A stretch of DNA of 64,000 bases from positions 2,642,501-2,706,500 of the forward strand of contig NZ_CP121694.1 in assembly GCF_035573695.1 (NCBI RefSeq), in the 5' to 3' direction. The position numbers and the translations under genes were made by a program. Below are positions 15,324-57,321 of this stretch, piece after piece. This DNA is from Metallumcola ferriviriculae (GTDB lineage: Bacteria; Bacillota; JADQBR01). The notes under the pieces are model-generated. The model had not been told where the DNA came from. It made no database searches and worked only from the letters and a program-made list of their open reading frames with translations. The first letter of the stretch is position 1, and each line of letters begins with the position of its first letter.

Positions 15324-15461
15324 GCCCATAAAAAATCACCTCGCCTTATATTCATTTCCTATTACTTCTGCGTCGAGATGACATTTCCTGCCAGCTATGC
15401 GAACTTTTGTTCGGTTTTTTTGGAAAAGTAAATAAGTGACACCTTTGGTGCCTGACACCAT
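15324..15461. mobile_element. Solo copy of the RAYT gene leader (internally deleted element)
   Basis: This stretch matches the sequence just upstream of the RAYT gene (41187-41222 continued at 42950-43058, across the IS). Shared blocks include AAAAAATCACCTCGC, GACATTTCCTGCCA and TATGCGAACTTTTGTTCGG. On the minus strand GAGGTGATTTTTT is followed by ATGGGC, i.e. the RAYT ribosome site and its first two codons, after which similarity stops. It runs into repeat locus 2. The whole coding body of the transposase is absent. Confidence 0.8.
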
Positions 15462-15507
15462 AACAAAAGAGTGTCACTTATTGGTGCCTGACACCAATAA
15501 GTGACAC
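15431..15507. repeat. GTGTCAC-family palindromes, locus 2
   Basis: AATAAGTGACACC, GGTGCCTGACACC, then GTGTCACTTATTGGTG-CCTGA-CACCAATAAGTGACAC as a complete hairpin. It ends 4 bases from the stop codon of the gamma subunit gene (15512) and could terminate the kor operon. Confidence 0.85.
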
Positions 15508-29498: not shown

Positions 29499-29612
29499 AA
29501 GTGTCACTTATTGGTGTTGTCACTTATTGGTGTCAGGCACCAGGATACGATCAAGAAAAAAAGTGTCACTTATTGGTGTCAGGCACCAATAAGTGACACT
29601 AATAAGTGACAA
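29499..29612. repeat. GTGTCAC-family palindromes, locus 4, with internal duplication
   Basis: Two copies of the block CGATCAAGAAAAAAAG followed by GTGTCACTTATTGGTG begin at 29486 and 29548, 62 bp apart. The second is completed into a full hairpin and trailed by an extra AATAAGTGAC. The end is 3-5 bases from the stop codon of the second TRAP permease (29616). Confidence 0.85.
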
Positions 29613-29615
29613 GAT

Positions 29616-31526
29616 TTACATTTCTTCAACGCTTTTTCCTATATTCACAACTTGCTTTTGTCCTCTTCTTATATTGGTAAACAGGGCCAGGCCTATTGCT
29701 ATAATTCCCAGCAGGTCTGTATAGATACCCACATAAAGCATGCTGAAGGCACCGACAATTAACAGCACTCGTTCATAGAATACTGCTTTATTGACAAAAT
29801 AGCCGATGCTGCCTCCTGCTAGTGCAGCAACTCCAATTATAGCTGTAATTAACGCTAAACTGACGCTAACAAACGAACCCTGGCCCAGCAGGGCCGGTGA
29901 TTGAGCGAATAAAAATGGAATTATATAGGCTGCAACGCCAATTTTACAGGCCGTGAAAGCAATTTTCATTGGGTCGTCTTGGGCGATACCTGATGCAGCA
30001 TAGGCTGCCAGTGCTACCGGTGGAGTGATGGCAGAGATAATGGCAAAATAAAATACGAATAGGTGTGAACCCAGCGGCAGTATACCCATCTCAATTAAAG
30101 CGGGTGCGGCCATGGTTCCGGCTACGATATAGGCTGCGCTGGTAGGCAGCCCCATGCCAAGAACGATAGCTATCATACCGGTGAGCAACAGGGCTATCCA
30201 TAAATAACCGCCGGATAAGGAGATAATAAATGACGATAATTTTAAGCCAACACCTGTCAAATTAATACTGCCCACCACTAAACCCGCGGTGGCGCAAGCC
30301 AATGCAACCATGATAGTGTTTCTTGAAGCGGCCAGTGCCCCGTCCACAAAACGCTGCCAGGTGAGACGGGTGTCCTTGCTAACGAATGAGACAATAAACA
30401 TTGTGACAATAGCATAAAATCCGGAACGGATGGGACTATATTGAACCACACCTAAAAAGTAAAGTAAAGCTACTAAAGGCAATAGTAAGTACCATCCTTC
30501 TTTGAGAACTTCTCTCGTTGATGGGAGTTCTTTCTTTGGCAATCCCTTTAGCCCCAAGCGACAAGCTTCAAAATGCACGCCAAATAGTATGGAAATATAA
30601 AATAAAACTGCTGGAATAATTGCCGCTACCGCTACTTCAATATAAGGAATACCTAAGAATTCGGCAATAATGAATGCTGCAGCACCCATAACGGGCGGCA
30701 TCAACTGCCCGCCTGAAGAAGCACACGATTCCACTGCACCGGCGAAATGAGATTTATAACCGTTACTTTTCATTAATGGGATAGTAAAAGTACCTGTGCC
30801 CACTACGTTTGCCACTGCACTGCCGGTTAAAGACCCCATAAAGCCGCTGGCCAACACGGCCACTTTTGCCGGCCCACCGACGAAACGTCCCATCAGAGAC
30901 ATGGCTAAACGCAAGAGGAATTCACCCATCCCAAGTTTCTCCAGCATGGACGTAAGAAAGATAAAGAGAAAAATATAGTTTGCGGACACCCCCAGCGGAA
31001 TTCCGAAAATCCCCTCGGTGGTAAGGTACATCTGAGATACCACTCGCTCTAAACCGTACCCCTTATGACCCAGCAATCCCGGAAGATATGGTCCGATAAA
31101 GGTATAGATTAGGAAGAAGCCGGCAATGAACACTAATACCCATCCCACAGCCCGGCGGGTAGCTTCCAACAGCAGCAATATCATTATAATACCAAAGATA
31201 GTGTCCAAGGTGGTATATGACCCGGCGCGCATTACTATCTCCTGATAAAAAACTATAATATATAGCCCGGATGCTATTGCGAGCGTAACAAGTATCCCGT
31301 CAAGAATAGTCGCCTGGTCTGATTTTCCTCGCTTGGACAAGGGAAAAATTAAAAAGGTCAAAACTAAAATAAAAACTAAATGGATGTCTCTTTGAATCCA
31401 AGCGCCAAGTAGAGATACACCGGCGGTATATAGCTGGAATGCCGTTAAAGCTAGAGCCACTGCCGTAATCATTAATATAGAAAATTTCTTAGTATTTTTT
31501 TCCTTAGCAATCTCCTGTTTGCTCAA
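29616..31526 (-). CDS. TRAP transporter fused permease (TAXI type, second)
   Basis: 636 residues, fused DctQ/DctM-like and rich in membrane helices. GSLTGSAVANVVGTGTFTIPLM, CASSGGQLMPPVMGAAAFIIAE and LGMGLPTSAAYIVAG match the same conserved sites as the first permease, with clear divergence between the two. Start at TTG 31526, with AAGGAGGGG upstream. It is third in the unit TAXI-DUF1850-permease and is probably driven by the sigma-54-like promoter at 33281. Confidence 0.9.
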   Translation of the reverse strand: MSKQEIAKEKNTKKFSILMITAVALALTAFQLYTAGVSLLGAWIQRDIHLVFILVLTFLIFPLSKRGKSDQATILDGILVTLAIASGLYIIVFYQEIVMRAGSYTTLDTIFGIIMILLLLEATRRAVGWVLVFIAGFFLIYTFIGPYLPGLLGHKGYGLERVVSQMYLTTEGIFGIPLGVSANYIFLFIFLTSMLEKLGMGEFLLRLAMSLMGRFVGGPAKVAVLASGFMGSLTGSAVANVVGTGTFTIPLMKSNGYKSHFAGAVESCASSGGQLMPPVMGAAAFIIAEFLGIPYIEVAVAAIIPAVLFYISILFGVHFEACRLGLKGLPKKELPSTREVLKEGWYLLLPLVALLYFLGVVQYSPIRSGFYAIVTMFIVSFVSKDTRLTWQRFVDGALAASRNTIMVALACATAGLVVGSINLTGVGLKLSSFIISLSGGYLWIALLLTGMIAIVLGMGLPTSAAYIVAGTMAAPALIEMGILPLGSHLFVFYFAIISAITPPVALAAYAASGIAQDDPMKIAFTACKIGVAAYIIPFLFAQSPALLGQGSFVSVSLALITAIIGVAALAGGSIGYFVNKAVFYERVLLIVGAFSMLYVGIYTDLLGIIAIGLALFTNIRRGQKQVVNIGKSVEEM

Positions 31527-31592
31527 GTTTACCCCTCCTTGATTGCCTTTCTGTTATTTCATTCTTAGGGTCTGCCCCCATTCTTTCATTTC

Positions 31593-32111
31593 TTAGCTGT
31601 TATTTCTAACAGATATATATACTAAGTCCATACCAGCGGCATAGTCCCAGAGGTGAACTTCCGAGCCTCGATATTGCAAAGTGTGGTCAGCAATAGTGCC
31701 AACTCGTAGGGGCAGCGTACCAATTTGCCGATTCATATTGATAATTCTAACCCATTTCCCGTCCAATATCAGCTCACCCTGCCCGGCATAGTCTAGACCG
31801 GCACCAAATGATATCCAACTGACTTTGTCCAGCACAAGGCTTCCCTGCCTCACTTGGTAAGCTTCAATTACAGGGAGGTGATCTACCGAGTGAGTATACC
31901 GTATTTGGAACTTTTCACCCTCTTTAATCGGGCCGCTCCAAATTAGCTGACCACTATTTGCATTTTCTATCGACAGCATCAAGCTAGGAGCGCTGAATAT
32001 TTTTGTCCACATTATACCTGCCAGCATTAAAATACCAAGAGAGAGCAGGAAAAAGAACCCGATCTTTCTCCGGTTCTTCTCCCGCCAATCTTTTGTTGGC
32101 ATAATGTGCAT
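31593..32111 (-). CDS. DUF1850 protein of a TAXI TRAP system (first)
   Basis: 172 residues. One N-terminal membrane helix (IGFFFLLSLGILMLAGIMW) is followed by an extracytoplasmic domain with IRYTHSVDHLPVIEAYQV and a final WDYAAGMDLVYISV. The YTHSVxxxPxxE motif marks DUF1850, a family nearly always found with TAXI TRAP genes and of unknown function. It starts immediately after the binding-protein stop and lies between it and the permease. Confidence 0.85.
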   Translation of the reverse strand: MHIMPTKDWREKNRRKIGFFFLLSLGILMLAGIMWTKIFSAPSLMLSIENANSGQLIWSGPIKEGEKFQIRYTHSVDHLPVIEAYQVRQGSLVLDKVSWISFGAGLDYAGQGELILDGKWVRIINMNRQIGTLPLRVGTIADHTLQYRGSEVHLWDYAAGMDLVYISVRNNS

Positions 32112-33125
32112 TTACTTCATCTCTGGTGGAATGAGGCGGTCGGGCACCTCTACATTAATTTCTTCTAGATATTTAATTACACCTGGATGTAAAGGTGCAA
32201 CAGCATTATTAACAAGGTTCTCAGGAGTGGTCAGCTTAGCTCCGGGGTAGACTTGTATGAGTGTATCCACGTGCTCAAAAATGGCCTTAACTATGTTATA
32301 AGCGGTTTCCTCCGGCATATCTTTATTTACAGCTACCGTATTCCAAACGGCAATAGTAGTTACATCCTCATCTTGCCCTTGATAGGTTCCGGCAGGCAAT
32401 ACCATCTTATTGTAATAAGGCAGCGCCGATACAACTTTGTTTACTTCGCTATCGGAGAAATTGATGATTCGAATATCATGGGTAGTAGCCAAGTCCATCA
32501 CTGAAGAAGTGGGAGCACCTACCGACCAGATACCAACATCTATTACACCGTCCCTTAGGCCTTGGGTGTTTTCAGCGAAGGACAAACGCAATACTTCAAA
32601 AGCATCATAGGTTATGCCCAAAGAACCTAGCACTCCCTTAGCCATTGACTCAGTACCACTCCCTGGAGCACCTACCGAAACCTTATTTCCTTTCAAACCT
32701 TCTATGGTTTGAATGCCGCTATCTTTTAAGGTAACAACGTGCTGTACATTGGGGTACATTTCAAAAAGCGTCCGCAGTCCCAGTTTTCCTTTGAAGGGTT
32801 CTTCACCATTAGTTGCCTTAAATAATACATCGTTCATCATTAATGCTAATTGGGTTTGTCCATTTTCAAGCAAGCGGGCATTTTCCACAGAAGCACCTGT
32901 GACTTCAGCTGCTGCTTCTATTCCTTGGACATTTTTATTAATAACGTCTGCCATGCTGCCGCCATAAGGGTAATAAGTTCCACCGGTACCGCCGGTGGCA
33001 ATTGAAATTCTTTCTACTGATCCGGATTCATCCTCGCTGGGAGTACCTCCAGAACAACCCGCAACGATAAAAGTAAGTGCACTAATAACCAATATTAAGA
33101 AAATAAATTTCCTTCCTTTGCTCAT
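32112..33125 (-). CDS. TAXI-family TRAP transporter solute-binding lipoprotein (second)
   Basis: 337 residues. A signal peptide with lipobox IVAGC is followed by SIATGGTGGTYYPYGGSMAD and EVTGASVENARLL. The ATG at 33125 has no close ribosome site; a GGGGG stretch lies about 24 bases upstream, at normal spacing to an in-frame CTG (five codons earlier). A CTG start is rare, so this is only noted. It heads the transporter unit, next to the two-component genes that probably control it. Confidence 0.9.
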   Translation of the reverse strand: MSKGRKFIFLILVISALTFIVAGCSGGTPSEDESGSVERISIATGGTGGTYYPYGGSMADVINKNVQGIEAAAEVTGASVENARLLENGQTQLALMMNDVLFKATNGEEPFKGKLGLRTLFEMYPNVQHVVTLKDSGIQTIEGLKGNKVSVGAPGSGTESMAKGVLGSLGITYDAFEVLRLSFAENTQGLRDGVIDVGIWSVGAPTSSVMDLATTHDIRIINFSDSEVNKVVSALPYYNKMVLPAGTYQGQDEDVTTIAVWNTVAVNKDMPEETAYNIVKAIFEHVDTLIQVYPGAKLTTPENLVNNAVAPLHPGVIKYLEEINVEVPDRLIPPEMK

Positions 33126-37026: not shown

Positions 37027-37115
37027 TTCTACGCTGGTGGTAATTAATCCTCCCGAGGATAATTTGTTACGGGTAGGTACGTGTTAGGTACGTATTGATG
37101 AAAGGAGCAGTAACA

Positions 37116-38141
37116 GTGAGAAAAGCAATATTCTGGGTTGCGATAATTTTGCTGATCACTGCCACTTTTTTAGGGTGCAGTGGCCTATCTTTATGGTCAA
37201 ATGCAGAAAATGGCTCAGGGCCGAAAAACACCAACAGCAGTACTACCCGAGAAGCAGTTACTATATTGACCGGGGGTACGTCCGGAGTATACTTCCCCCT
37301 AGGCGGTGCCTTAGCGGAAATATATCACCGAAATTTGAATGTGGCAGTTTCATTTCAATCAACTGGCGCTTCGGCGGAAAACTGTTACAAATTGGCCCGC
37401 GGCAAAGGAGAATTGGCATTTGCTATGGCGGATACAGTGTCTGATGCTTATTATGGCCAAGGTAGATTTGAAGGCAAACCATTGACCAATATTAGAGGAT
37501 TATCAGCCATGTATTCCAATTATCTGCATCTGATTACCACCAAAGATAAAGGAATAGCTTCGCTGGCAGATATCAGGGGAAAAAGGGTGGCGGTAGGCGC
37601 CCACGGCAGCGGTACCGAAATTAATGCAAAGCGTGTCCTGATTGCTGCTGGATTAACTTATGATGATATAGAAGAACACTTCTTATCTTTTGCCGAAGCG
37701 ATTCAGGGCTTACGAGACGAGACTATTGACGTCGCTGTTTTGTCGTCCGGCATTCCAAACATTGCGGTAAGCAAATTGGCGGCAGAAAAGCAGTTGGTGC
37801 TGATACCAGTTTCCCATAAAATAATAACTAAACTTCAAGAGGTTTCCCCTGCTTACACCGACGTTATTATTCCTGGTGCTACTTATCCCGGTGTTGACAC
37901 TAATATCGCTACGGTAGGTGTAAAAAACCTTATAGTTACTAGAGAAGAGCTTAGCGAGGAATTCGTATATAAACTAACGAAAGTAATTTTTGAGAATACC
38001 GATTTCTTAAGGAGTACCCATGCTGCTGCAGATAATATCCTCCTAGACACCGCTGTAGAAGGTATGCCAATTCCATTACATCAAGGGGCTGAGAGGTATT
38101 ATCGGGAAATGGGAGTATTAGAGCCCCAAGTTTCGCCATGA
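37116..38141 (+). CDS. TAXI-family solute-binding lipoprotein (third, without permease)
   Basis: About 341 residues. The signal peptide (VRKAIFWVAIILLITATFL) ends in the lipobox FLGC. TILTGGTSGVYFPLGGALAE and STGASAENCYKLARG match the TAXI pocket motifs. I choose GTG 37116 with AAAGGAG 8 bases upstream; the ATG pair at 37095 would overlap that site. It is divergent from the sensor kinase and followed by DUF1850 with a 4-base overlap. No permease follows, so it may feed the second TRAP permease or act as a receptor for the kinase. Confidence 0.88.
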   Translation: MRKAIFWVAIILLITATFLGCSGLSLWSNAENGSGPKNTNSSTTREAVTILTGGTSGVYFPLGGALAEIYHRNLNVAVSFQSTGASAENCYKLARGKGELAFAMADTVSDAYYGQGRFEGKPLTNIRGLSAMYSNYLHLITTKDKGIASLADIRGKRVAVGAHGSGTEINAKRVLIAAGLTYDDIEEHFLSFAEAIQGLRDETIDVAVLSSGIPNIAVSKLAAEKQLVLIPVSHKIITKLQEVSPAYTDVIIPGATYPGVDTNIATVGVKNLIVTREELSEEFVYKLTKVIFENTDFLRSTHAAADNILLDTAVEGMPIPLHQGAERYYREMGVLEPQVSP

Positions 38142-38674
38142 GAAACAAATCTATCGTTGTGGCTGTTGTCATGCTGGCTTTATGGTTCATTCCATTAGTG
38201 CCCATTCTAGCAATTAAGGACCAGGATACCGGGAAAATACTAACGGCAGTTTTTACTCAAAACAATACTTTTAGTTTGGAATGGATTCATTCTGTAGAGC
38301 TTGAACCCTGGCAGGAAACTTATCGGCTGGCTGACGGAAAAATTAAGTTAACTGAAACCCGATTTAAGGCTTTCGGCGCCGGTTCGCCTGTTAACGAAGG
38401 TGACGAAATCTTCTTTAAAGACGGATGGATAGTGATAAGAGGTATTAATAGGGAACTTGATTTTCTCCCCTTAACAATTTCTCCTCGCAGCGGACACCGG
38501 CTAGATACAGGTAGAAAGGTGCTTCTATTGCAGGACGTTGCCCCAGGGGACAGGAACCTTATCATTGAGCAGGTCAAGGTGAACTTACCCCGGGCGGTTT
38601 ACTACCGCATTTTCATTGCCGGTGTCACTTATTGGTGTCAGGCACCTATGCCGGTGTCAGGCACCAATAAGTGA
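38138..38674 (+). CDS. DUF1850 protein (second), with C-terminus encoded by a repeat
   Basis: 178 residues. An N-terminal membrane helix (IVVAVVMLALWFIPLVPIL) and SLEWIHSVELEPWQETYRL mark DUF1850. Its ATG overlaps the TAXI stop by 4 bases. Residues 162-178 (GVTYWCQAPMPVSGTNK) are translated entirely from the GTGTCAC repeat that begins exactly at codon 162, and the TGA stop comes from AATAAGTGAC. The natural C-terminus has therefore probably been replaced by the insertion; whether the protein is still functional is unknown. Confidence 0.82.
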   Translation: MRNKSIVVAVVMLALWFIPLVPILAIKDQDTGKILTAVFTQNNTFSLEWIHSVELEPWQETYRLADGKIKLTETRFKAFGAGSPVNEGDEIFFKDGWIVIRGINRELDFLPLTISPRSGHRLDTGRKVLLLQDVAPGDRNLIIEQVKVNLPRAVYYRIFIAGVTYWCQAPMPVSGTNK

Positions 38675-38737
38675 CACCAATAAGTGACACTTTTGCCAAC
38701 TTTGGTGTCAGGCACTAATAAGTGACATTTTTGCTAA
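38621..38737. repeat. GTGTCAC-family palindromes, locus 5
   Basis: It contains GGTGTCACTTATTGGTGTCAG, two further GGTGTCAGGCACC-type boxes, two AATAAGTGACAC boxes and the CATTTTTGCTAAC tail also seen at loci 3 and 6. It overlaps the last 18 codons, including the stop, of the DUF1850 gene. Confidence 0.88.
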
Positions 38738-40039: not shown

Positions 40040-40147
40040 AAGTGTCACTTATTGGTGTCAGGCACCGGGAACGGGCACCGGGAACGCTGCAAGTGTCACT
40101 TATTGGTGCCTGACACCATGACACCAATAAGTGACACTTTTGCTAAC
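40040..40147. repeat. GTGTCAC-family palindromes, locus 6 (downstream end of the RAYT element)
   Basis: GTGTCACTTATTGGTGTCAG-GCACC, a GGGCACCGGGAACG duplication, then GTGTCACTTATTGGTGCC and GACACCAATAAGTGACAC with the tail TTTTGCTAAC. The RAYT stop codon lies in this tail, 4 bases past the palindrome. Confidence 0.88.
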
Positions 40148-41192
40148 GGCTTCGCTGCAGTAAATTGAGTACGGCGGTGCGGCTCATGGTAATGTTGGCG
40201 CCTATTTGCTCGGGAGAATAGCCGTAACGTTTGGCATCTTTGATGTAGGCAATTTTGGCCGGGGTTAAATCACGCAGTCTTCTTCCGGACTTAAGTTGGT
40301 GAAACTCTTGGCTGGTACAGCAATTTTGGAGAAGGATTTCGTCCAATGGGGGCCAGTCCTGCGGTTCTCCTTTTGTCCCACGTTTTTTTATTTTCTCTGT
40401 GCCTTCCGTTATCTTTATTCTGCTGGTTAGATGGGTGTCTCCCTGCCCTTTGGGCTGATCGTTTTCCGGAATTTGTACTCGATTATTTTCTTGGGGATCT
40501 ATTAGGGCTTTGATTTGGACGTTTTCCGGAGAATTTACCTGGTCCGAAGGATTTACTTGGCCACTTTCTACAAGGGTCATTTTCTTGCTTCCCGATCTAT
40601 TTGCAATGTGGTCTGCTTCACCGATAACTCTTCCTTCTTCATAGTTATTATCGTCATGCTGCTGCATTAAACGCTTGTACACGACAGCGGCTTCCTGACG
40701 ATCAGGAGATATGGCATTTAGTATTACATCGGTATTGATAAAACCTGGGAGAGAACGCCTGTAATATATATCGCTGCTCCAATAATACTGCTCAGCGAGA
40801 GAGTATATTCCGGCTTTTACCGGGTTTTGGTGAATGTACCGTAACACCGCCAACAAGTAGCTTTCGTCCTTAATCAGCAGCGACTTATACCTCCCTTGAA
40901 ACACGTGCCCCACTCTATCCATGCTCTTATTGAAATACCGAGCATAGCGGCTGTTGAGCTGCTGCATGAAACATCTTAAAGGATTGTTGGTGCGCTGCAG
41001 CAGTAGATGATAGTGGTTACCCATCAGCACGTAACCCAAAATCCTGAAATTATGTTCGGTTACCATCTCCTCTAGGAGTTTAAGAAAATAACCTTTATGA
41101 CGGTCCGATTCAAAAATATACTCCCGGTTGTTCCCTCGCTGAATAACATGGTAAATGGCTCCCTCATAGTCAATCCGCGGTTTTCTGCCCAC
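40143..41192 (-). CDS. REP-associated tyrosine transposase (RAYT, Y1_Tnp family)
   Basis: 349 residues. The start GRKPRIDYEGAIYHVIQRGNN and the HUH pair in GNHYHLLL (H60, H62) are classic. The helix with the catalytic tyrosine is LNSRYARYFN (Y83 or Y86), followed by GHVFQGRYKS and AVLRYIHQNPVKA. These enzymes cut single-stranded DNA at hairpins and are linked to REP sequences. The C-terminal third is longer than in the smallest RAYTs and ends in a helix-turn-helix-like part (YSPEQIGANITMSRTAVLNLL). It starts at GTG 41192 with GAGGTG upstream. Repeat loci 6 and 7 flank it; an IS element sits in its leader. Confidence 0.92.
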   Translation of the reverse strand: MGRKPRIDYEGAIYHVIQRGNNREYIFESDRHKGYFLKLLEEMVTEHNFRILGYVLMGNHYHLLLQRTNNPLRCFMQQLNSRYARYFNKSMDRVGHVFQGRYKSLLIKDESYLLAVLRYIHQNPVKAGIYSLAEQYYWSSDIYYRRSLPGFINTDVILNAISPDRQEAAVVYKRLMQQHDDNNYEEGRVIGEADHIANRSGSKKMTLVESGQVNPSDQVNSPENVQIKALIDPQENNRVQIPENDQPKGQGDTHLTSRIKITEGTEKIKKRGTKGEPQDWPPLDEILLQNCCTSQEFHQLKSGRRLRDLTPAKIAYIKDAKRYGYSPEQIGANITMSRTAVLNLLQRSR

Positions 41193-43022: not shown

Positions 43023-43070
43023 AAATAAGTGATACCTTTGTGGTGCCTGACACCATAAGTGTCACTTATT
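43023..43070. repeat. GTGTCAC-family palindromes, locus 7 (upstream end of the RAYT element)
   Basis: AAATAAGTGATACC, GGTGCCTGACACC and GTGTCACTTATT. The arrangement copies the first part of locus 2, including the flanking RAYT leader. The XRE gene stop codon (TAA at 43066) is the reverse of TTA in CACTTATT. Confidence 0.85.
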
Positions 43071-43464
43071 TCTTTTTTGTTCTAATAAGACGCTTTGCCT
43101 TCAGATAGTAGAATAGCTCTGCCCGGTCAGTTTCGTCCCAATCCTCAAAGTGTTTTAGTTCTTCTAGAACTAGTTTTAACTCCGGTTTACCCAACAGGTA
43201 ACGGATTTCTTCGCCTGCTGTCTGTTCCGGCAACTTGGATGAATTTTCTGGACCCCTGCCTTCACCCAGCAGGTAGCTGACAGTAGTATTGAGCGCCTGG
43301 GCAATATCCTTAGTTCTTTCAAGCGATGGCGTGCTGCGCTCGTTTTCGATATCGCTTAAAAAGGAGATGGATATGCCTGTTCTTTCAGACAGCTGTTTTA
43401 AAGACAGTTTCTTCTCTTTCCTTAAACTTTTTATACGTTTACCAATTTCCAAAGGTATACCCAC
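43066..43464 (-). CDS. XRE-family helix-turn-helix regulator (SinR-like)
   Basis: 132 residues. The helix-turn-helix is at 8-63 (LKQLSERTGISISFLSDIENERSTPSLERTKDIAQALNT is the recognition region). The C-terminal part (GEEIRYLLGKPELKLVLEELKHFEDWDETDRAELFYYLKA) is helical and probably a dimerisation or ligand domain. It ends in KKK followed by a TAA supplied by repeat locus 7. It is divergent from a second small XRE gene, across a 211-bp region with repeated ACGTAA motifs. Target genes are not known. Confidence 0.88.
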   Translation of the reverse strand: MGIPLEIGKRIKSLRKEKKLSLKQLSERTGISISFLSDIENERSTPSLERTKDIAQALNTTVSYLLGEGRGPENSSKLPEQTAGEEIRYLLGKPELKLVLEELKHFEDWDETDRAELFYYLKAKRLIRTKKK

Positions 43465-56050: not shown

Positions 56051-56113
56051 AAGTGTCACTTATTGGTGTCACTTATTGGTGCCTGACACCATATGACACC
56101 AATAAGTGACACC
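56051..56113. repeat. GTGTCAC-family palindromes, locus 9
   Basis: GTGTCACTTATTGGTGTCAC, a second CACTTATTGGTGCC, then GACACC and GACACCAATAAGTGACACC. It overlaps the last 18 codons and the stop of the MFS gene. Confidence 0.88.
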
Positions 56114-57321
56114 AACCGGCTATGATAGTTCTCAAAAAATAAAATACTTCCCATTAGCAAGGAAACGGCGCCCTGCACGTTCCATGCGACTGTATAATTT
56201 TGATTCCATTCCACAATATGGCCAAATAGTATCGGACCAGTAATGATGCCAATGTAACAGATGGTCATACTAAAACCTACCACGGAACCTGCTTTGCTTG
56301 AACCGCCTTCCTTGGCCACTGCGTTTAAAAAGACGGCATTCCAACCAATATTTATTATTCCTAGCACTAAAGAAACTGCAGCTAGTACCAAGGTGCCCGG
56401 TTTAAAATAGTCAAATAAATTTAGGCTAAAAAAAGAACCGGCGGATAATAAACTAAGTAATATTAGTACTTTTTCCTGCTTGTTTTTAAATAGAAAATCA
56501 CTTACCACAGCCCATTCCATCCTGCCAATGACACCACCAATAAGGCTGATACCCAAGAAACGTGCGGCATTGACTGAGTCTAGGCCAATGGTTTCGTGTA
56601 AATATAAGGTTAAATAACCTATTACCGCAAATTGTGCCGCTCCCATAACCATGGCAAAGAGTGAGAGGATGACAACTTTTCGCGTAATAGTTTTTTTATT
56701 CAATTCCAATGTCTTAACTGAAGAATCCGGGACATCATCCTGCTCATTTTCCTGATACCAATACATCACGAAACTTAAACTAAGAATCAGTATACCGCTA
56801 ATCGCCAAGGATTGTCGCCAGTTACCGGTCCATAATGTTAAAACCGGTAATAGGTAAGCGGCGATAATACCGCCTAAAGGGACCCCTGTCTGTTTTAGTC
56901 CCATGGCTGTTGCTTGGTTTTTTTCATTTAAAAACCATGACTGTACTGCTTTGGTACCAGCAGGGGTAACTGTTCCATAGCCCACCCCTGCTAAAGCTAG
57001 AAAAATTAGTATGGACACAAAAGTGCCGGAAAATGCAGCACAAATGATTGAAATTCCCACTAACATTTGAGCTGCGATAAGAACTTTTTTGACACCAATC
57101 TTATCAGTAATCCATCCCGAAAACCAAAGTATACCGATCCCGCCCCCATAGCTTGCGGCGGTAAAGTAACCAATCTGATTTGTGGAAAGATGCAGGTATT
57201 CCTTGATTTGAGGGGTCAGAGGGTAAACCACTTGGTTGCCAATTGCCACGGCTACTTGGGACAATGTAATAACAAGCACCATAACCCATTGGACCTTTAA
57301 CCCTAATGATCTTTTTCCCAA
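56056..57321 (-). CDS. Major facilitator superfamily carrier, C-terminus encoded by a repeat
   Basis: 421 residues with twelve membrane helices. GWITDKIGVKKVL is the loop 2-3 motif, and ALAGVGYGTVTPAGTKAVQSWF is conserved. Residues 404-421 (ending GVIWCQAPISDTNK) come from repeat locus 9, including the TGA. TTG start with CGGGGGGAAG upstream. As the last gene after sucD it may export or import a carboxylic acid product, but the substrate is unknown. The foreign tail is after the last helix, so activity may be kept. Confidence 0.85.
   Translation of the reverse strand: MGKRSLGLKVQWVMVLVITLSQVAVAIGNQVVYPLTPQIKEYLHLSTNQIGYFTAASYGGGIGILWFSGWITDKIGVKKVLIAAQMLVGISIICAAFSGTFVSILIFLALAGVGYGTVTPAGTKAVQSWFLNEKNQATAMGLKQTGVPLGGIIAAYLLPVLTLWTGNWRQSLAISGILILSLSFVMYWYQENEQDDVPDSSVKTLELNKKTITRKVVILSLFAMVMGAAQFAVIGYLTLYLHETIGLDSVNAARFLGISLIGGVIGRMEWAVVSDFLFKNKQEKVLILLSLLSAGSFFSLNLFDYFKPGTLVLAAVSLVLGIINIGWNAVFLNAVAKEGGSSKAGSVVGFSMTICYIGIITGPILFGHIVEWNQNYTVAWNVQGAVSLLMGSILFFENYHSRLVSLIGVIWCQAPISDTNK

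Follow-up and report, generated by a model that had tools for sequence, protein, structure and literature searches.

That small repeated elements can supply the ends of genes is already known, both from REP termini that give stops and from MITEs that give C-termini. The termini of GTAG-tagged REPs, which are mobilised by RAYTs, have been reported to provide flanking ORFs with stop codons (TAG) (Di Nocera et al. 2013, PMC3733652; Bertels and Rainey 2011, PMC3116915). In Coxiella, the MITEs QMITE1 and QMITE2 overlap the 3' ends of genes and contribute C-terminal residues or the stop codon, while protein length hardly changes (PMC5896051), and in Rickettsia palindromic repeats are translated within host proteins (reviewed in PMC10969869). 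A further group of Y1 transposases, the TIRYTs or Y1 subclass 2.1, comprises long proteins with an HTH-like C-terminal extension; their genes lie between inverted repeats, which may be self-complementary as well as dispersed (PMC3733652, PMC6006769); no REP-like sequences were found near the genes of subclass 2.1, the group with HTH extensions (PMC6006769).

The locus described here lies in a stretch of 64,000 nucleotides of the Metallumcola ferriviriculae genome (contig NZ_CP121694.1, positions 2,642,501 to 2,706,500), referred to below as the window. As judged by sequence comparison, a palindromic mini-element of REP-like kind, specific to this lineage and probably moved by a Y1 transposase, very probably lies as a composite copy across the 3' end of a DUF1850 gene in this stretch; elements of this family cap gene ends. 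The repeats resemble GTAG REPs in being short, high-copy palindromes placed just behind genes in a tandem or convergent setting, with a linked Y1 transposase. They differ in carrying neither a GTAG nor a CGTC tag and in giving TAA and TGA stops, never TAG, and their putative transposase is a longer protein whose C-terminus may be HTH-like (weak matches). Lacking the tag at the foot, they fall outside the GTAG and CGTC REP superfamilies; they do share general attributes of REPs, namely many copies (133 boxes), extragenic location (none of 88 sampled clusters is wholly inside a gene) and a position behind genes (two clusters are divergent). TIRYTs are similar in their long Y1 protein with flanking self-complementary, dispersed repeats, but GGGGWSAS, the TIR motif of most though not all TIRYTs, is absent from the M. 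ferriviriculae repeats, and against the published survey of subclass 2.1 stand more than 130 dispersed boxes in this genome. The Coxiella elements likewise supply stop codons and C-termini at gene 3' ends, but they are about 190 bp and longer, have TIRs and direct repeats, and are linked to other elements and not to a Y1 enzyme. The Rickettsia elements share the reading of a palindromic repeat as host-protein sequence; they sit in frame inside genes, however, a type of insertion found at none of the 88 clusters.

Table 1. Features of the window discussed in the text (positions within the window)
Feature	Position	Strand	Remarks
DUF1850 protein ORF	38138..38674	+	178 codons/178 aa; repeat supplies codons 162-178 and TGA
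Left arm GTGTCACTTATT	38622..38633	+	read VTYW in DUF1850 ORF; the G at 38621 before the arm also fits several copies
Box 1 GGTGTCAGGCACC	38634..38646	+	with T at 38633, read WCQAP
Box 2 GGTGTCAGGCACC	38653..38665	+	entered one frame over; read VSGT
Right arm AATAAGTGACACC	38666..38678	+	contains DUF1850 TGA stop, 38672-38674
Units beyond DUF1850 stop	38679..38727	+	second right arm 38679-38690; degenerate box 3 38704-38716; arm 38717-38727
Type III repeat units	40044..40139		directly downstream of Y1 gene 40143-41192
Y1 transposase (RAYT/TIRYT type), candidate mobiliser	40143..41192	-	349 aa; 1.5 kb from DUF1850 end; repeat units from about 6 nt beyond TAG stop
Type II element	43024..43070	-	tip TAA is the stop of HTH gene 43066-43464 (minus)
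Repeat-derived tail VSLIGVIWCQAPISDTNK and TGA of MFS ORF 56056-57321	56056..56112	-	cluster separate from that of DUF1850

The end of the DUF1850 protein

The ORF is assigned to DUF1850 by its match to PF08905 (E 1.4e-22). It ends ...AVYYRIFIA-GVTYWCQAPMPVSGTNK-stop, the last 17 residues being GVTYWCQAPMPVSGTNK; the DNA behind this tail and its TGA reads GGTGTCACTTATTGGTGTCAGGCACC TATGCC GGTGTCAGGCACCAATAAGTGA, and the C-terminal peptide runs ...YRIFIAGVTYWCQAPMPVSGTNK. The element here is of the type III form, a composite copy with the arms arranged GTGTCACTTATT-box-AATAAGTGACAC. At 38621, box 1 is translated as WCQAP; after TATGCC, box 2 falls in a frame offset by one, giving VSGT, and the ORF closes with AAT AAG TGA. 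The tail arises by reading into a REP-like mini-element. A sequence-only reading of this DNA had proposed that the repeat supplies the last 17 residues and the stop, and its sequence and coordinates were right. Its statement that codon 162 coincides exactly with the first base of the repeat needs qualifying: the codon does begin at 38621, but the boundary depends on how the element is defined, the conserved arm among copies being (G)TGTCACTTATT with a start at 38622 or 38623, and is good to 1-2 nt.

Relatives of the protein occur in 20 of 61 genomes, M. ferriviriculae counted among them, and 26 homologous ORFs were aligned, two of which are paralogues from the same genome. None of the 26 contains WCQAP or ends in TNK, and the nearest homologue (from genome G004, 47% identical) stops at about residue 156 of the window protein in this alignment. 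Because C-terminal length varies within the family, the native end is uncertain; we would place it at about residues 156-161.

The MFS gene listed in Table 1 carries the other of the two longest tails in the sampled clusters. Here the left arm is read VSLIG and the box WCQAP, the first right arm is open (ISDT), and the second right arm gives AAT AAG TGA. The two tails had been described as almost identical. WCQAP, from the box, and TNK-stop, from the right arm, are indeed common to both, but they are all that is common, since the left arm is in a different frame (VTYW in DUF1850 vs VSLIG in MFS). The same reading credited the element with a frame that stays open across both boxes up to a TGA of its own, and this did not hold: in single consensus elements, whichever the type, the WCQAP frame is open from end to end, and TAA or TGA closes the remaining two. 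Each of the two tails owes its stop to an adjoining second arm or box, and the common peptide therefore reflects a shared box and arm rather than one conserved frame. Four MFS relatives (25-29% identical) have unrelated tails of roughly similar length after the last helix, so the element seems to replace, not lengthen, the MFS end. Aligning both proteins with their homologues had been suggested as a check, and no repeat-free homologue with the same C-terminus was found (26 for DUF1850, four for MFS).

Two regions of the window (29616-33125, minus; 37095-38674, plus) each contain a DUF1850 gene beside an ORF of the size of a TAXI-type (NMT1_3-like) binding protein. One of the two DUF1850 genes also adjoins a DctM transporter, and the end of the DctM ORF at 29616 abuts a repeat cluster. 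The two neighbourhoods look like two TAXI-TRAP transport loci.

The repeat family and its candidate mobilisers

The box TGGTGTCAGGCACC, a 14-mer, has 15 matches in the window with up to two mismatches, against 0.32 expected; with up to one mismatch there are 133 matches in the 3.72 Mb genome and a single one for the reversed control. Reading 117 box contexts defined three palindromes around this one box. Type I, of which there are 33 full copies, reads AATAACTTGACAAAAT-GGTGTCAGGCACC-ATTTTGTCAAGTTATT with close variants; the type II sequence is AATAAGTGACACC..box..GGTGTCACTTATT; and in type III, as at the DUF1850 end, the arms are turned round. The consensus sequences are 41-47 nt long, within the 20-50 nt of short REP palindromes, and form perfect or near-perfect hairpins with RNA folding energies of -27.8, -35.8 and -28.3 kcal/mol for the three types. 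GT[AG]G and its complement are absent from all three consensus types, as is CGTC. Type I flanks have a C/G bias only.

Reversal of the type III arms relative to type II around the same box can be seen at window positions 38618-38681, 29520-29590 and 15440-15500, and rearrangement of tandem copies may be one route of conversion between these types. By eye, the listed boxes are concentrated at roughly 2.36-2.85 Mb of the 3.72 Mb genome (14600-56110 in the window).

The family appears, on the genomes compared, to be essentially confined to M. ferriviriculae. A repeat 23-mer is absent from 60 relatives, and the 15-mer TGGTGTCAGGCACCA, which occurs 53 times in M. ferriviriculae, is found once each in three of 397 other genomes, of which G001 (same family) has related arms; in the remaining two the match looks fortuitous. 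Searching the literature for the box sequence gave no match. In viral contigs neither the type III nor the type I core had an exact match that would point to a phage origin, and as for known RNA families there were sub-threshold mir-3116 matches only, an artefact that falls on both strands because the repeat is palindromic.

Eight Y1_Tnp matches are present in the genome. One is the window gene, with type III units on its 3' side; its paralogue at 2776349-2777254 has intact type I elements on both sides, the arrangement of a REPtron (a RAYT with its REPs). An IS200/IS605 insertion sequence, in which the gene travels together with its ends, would be expected in several near-identical copies; these two are single, diverged genes (59%). 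Both pass NCBIfam NF047646 (REP_Tyr_transpos; cut-off 80) marginally, at 80.7 bits for the window copy and 80.1 for the paralogue. The enzymes may well belong to Y1 subclass 2.1, though the HTH matches in the C-terminal extension are weak: of three paralogues two match HTH_23 and UPF0122, and the window copy matches neither. From this linkage, which is circumstantial, and from published RAYT biology we infer that the Y1 enzyme may move the repeats. A contig scan with the transposase as query gave a single distant match.

Two near-identical Y1 copies at 2603962 and 2608625 (~2604 and ~2609 kb) have AAGTTAAGTGCCTGGCACC beside the 5' end and are possibly a still-mobile relative of the same system. 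For these near-identical copies, at 2.60-2.62 Mb, the sequence by the 5' end can also be given as AATAAGTTAATAAGTTAAGTGCCTGGCACC, a 19-mer that occurs eight times in G001. In G002, also of the same family, a Y1 gene is flanked by AATTCACAT...GAGAACCGTCCCC palindromes (L162:1400-1460, 2340-2440), GGGGACGG, close to the TIRYT motif GGGGWSAS.

Capping of gene ends

Capping was counted in the 88 clusters, drawn from stretches around listed boxes, with genes called by codon-usage scoring, which is crude, and without Prodigal. Neighbouring genes are both on the minus strand at 53 clusters, both on the plus strand at 16, convergent at 16 and divergent at two, and one cluster has an uncalled neighbour. 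Divergent space makes up about 17% of intergenic length in the window, so that two of 88 is a marked deficit (P=1e-5). The bias to tandem and convergent gene ends is strong, and clusters are mostly less than 60 nt from a stop.

The sequence-only reading's proposal that the repeat can cap genes is borne out by 19 genes that stop inside a cluster, at about a fifth of the sampled sites. Their stops are 12 TAA, seven TGA and no TAG, as compared with 28 TAA, 27 TAG and eight TGA among 63 uncapped neighbours within 100 nt; for TAG, 0/19 vs 27/63 gives a Fisher P of 1.8e-4. Where genes enter through the AATAA tip, 11 of 14 end at the tip's own TAA, against the one third expected by frame (P=7e-4). 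With this TAA as the stop, most capped genes gain no residues, and three such genes compared with solved structures (transaldolase, acyl-CoA dehydrogenase and NadD) finish a few residues at most from the natural C-terminus. Capping is a regular property of the repeat family, since its arms (AATAAGTGA, AATAACTTGA) bring a stop into two of the three frames whichever strand is read and its copies lie just behind gene ends.

The effect has an independent replicate in another family. Genome G062 has a related repeat, AATAAGTTCGGTACCAGGTACCGAACTTATT, beside a Y1 gene (the counterpart in G017 and G133 is CAATAACTTAACAACTTAAGTGCCTGGCACC). Its palindrome has 45 strand-matches in the genome, and in the roughly 20 stretches examined it is entered by five gene ends, that of the transposase gene itself (...SSVPGTKLNNK-stop) included. 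This Y1 gene, on contig 52 (L195:2300-2440), finishes inside its own palindromic repeat as ...KISSVPGTKLNNK-stop; its upstream neighbour also ends within a repeat copy (...LNKLGTWYRT-stop).

Explanations and significance

The explanation we favour is that of a mobile mini-element. The elements would be moved as single-stranded hairpins by the Y1 transposases of the genome (the window gene and its 2.777 Mb paralogue), and copies would survive mainly where the harm is small, at or just behind stop codons. Genes would thereby come to end on a stop carried by the element, with a tail that is short or absent, and the WCQAP...TNK peptide would be a passive by-product of element placement. A native tail, resembling the repeat by chance or serving as its source, is extremely improbable. 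Variable C-terminal length among the homologues is in its favour, but the repeat sequence runs on beyond the stop, an unrelated MFS protein has the same motif with its left arm in a different frame, and the tail is found in none of the 26 homologues, on which ground a native origin is rejected.

Two accounts of the placement itself deserve more weight. The elements could be kept as 3'-end RNA signals for upstream genes, either bidirectional terminators or mRNA-stabilising hairpins, with capping incidental to the placement of elements at stop codons. We regard this as rather unlikely: hairpins of -28 to -36 kcal/mol and the bias to tandem and convergent ends close behind stops agree with it, but the 3' arm ends TTATT, usually without a long U run, and purifying selection alone predicts the same placement. 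Such a role is compatible with the mini-element explanation, not exclusive of it. Somewhat more doubtful still is a transposase that prefers AATAA/TTATT targets, such that host stops of the form xAA-TAA are chosen and the native stop is re-used or replaced by the element tip. The excess of tip entries in the TAA frame fits this idea, as do the near-natural ends of the genes compared with structures, but selection against long tails would give an equal excess, and the flanks of type I show no preference beyond their C/G bias; since the tip belongs to the palindrome itself, it takes empty sites to tell target from element. A wider version, in which the HTH-bearing Y1 transposases of the phylum carry their own class of untagged palindromes tipped AATAA...TTATT, with insertion favouring such sites and host stops preferentially serving as the tip or giving way to it, seems to us about as unlikely.

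On the mini-element explanation, the new case here is the untagged repeat family with its TAA and TGA stops. It offers a countable instance, replicated in a second genome, of mini-elements writing gene ends outside the tagged REP families, and it connects the extended Y1 transposases, near whose genes the published survey found no repeats, with a class of untagged repeat. For annotation, tails of WCQAP, VSGTNK or NGA in the M. ferriviriculae lineage are best taken as repeat read-through and not as conserved protein sequence.
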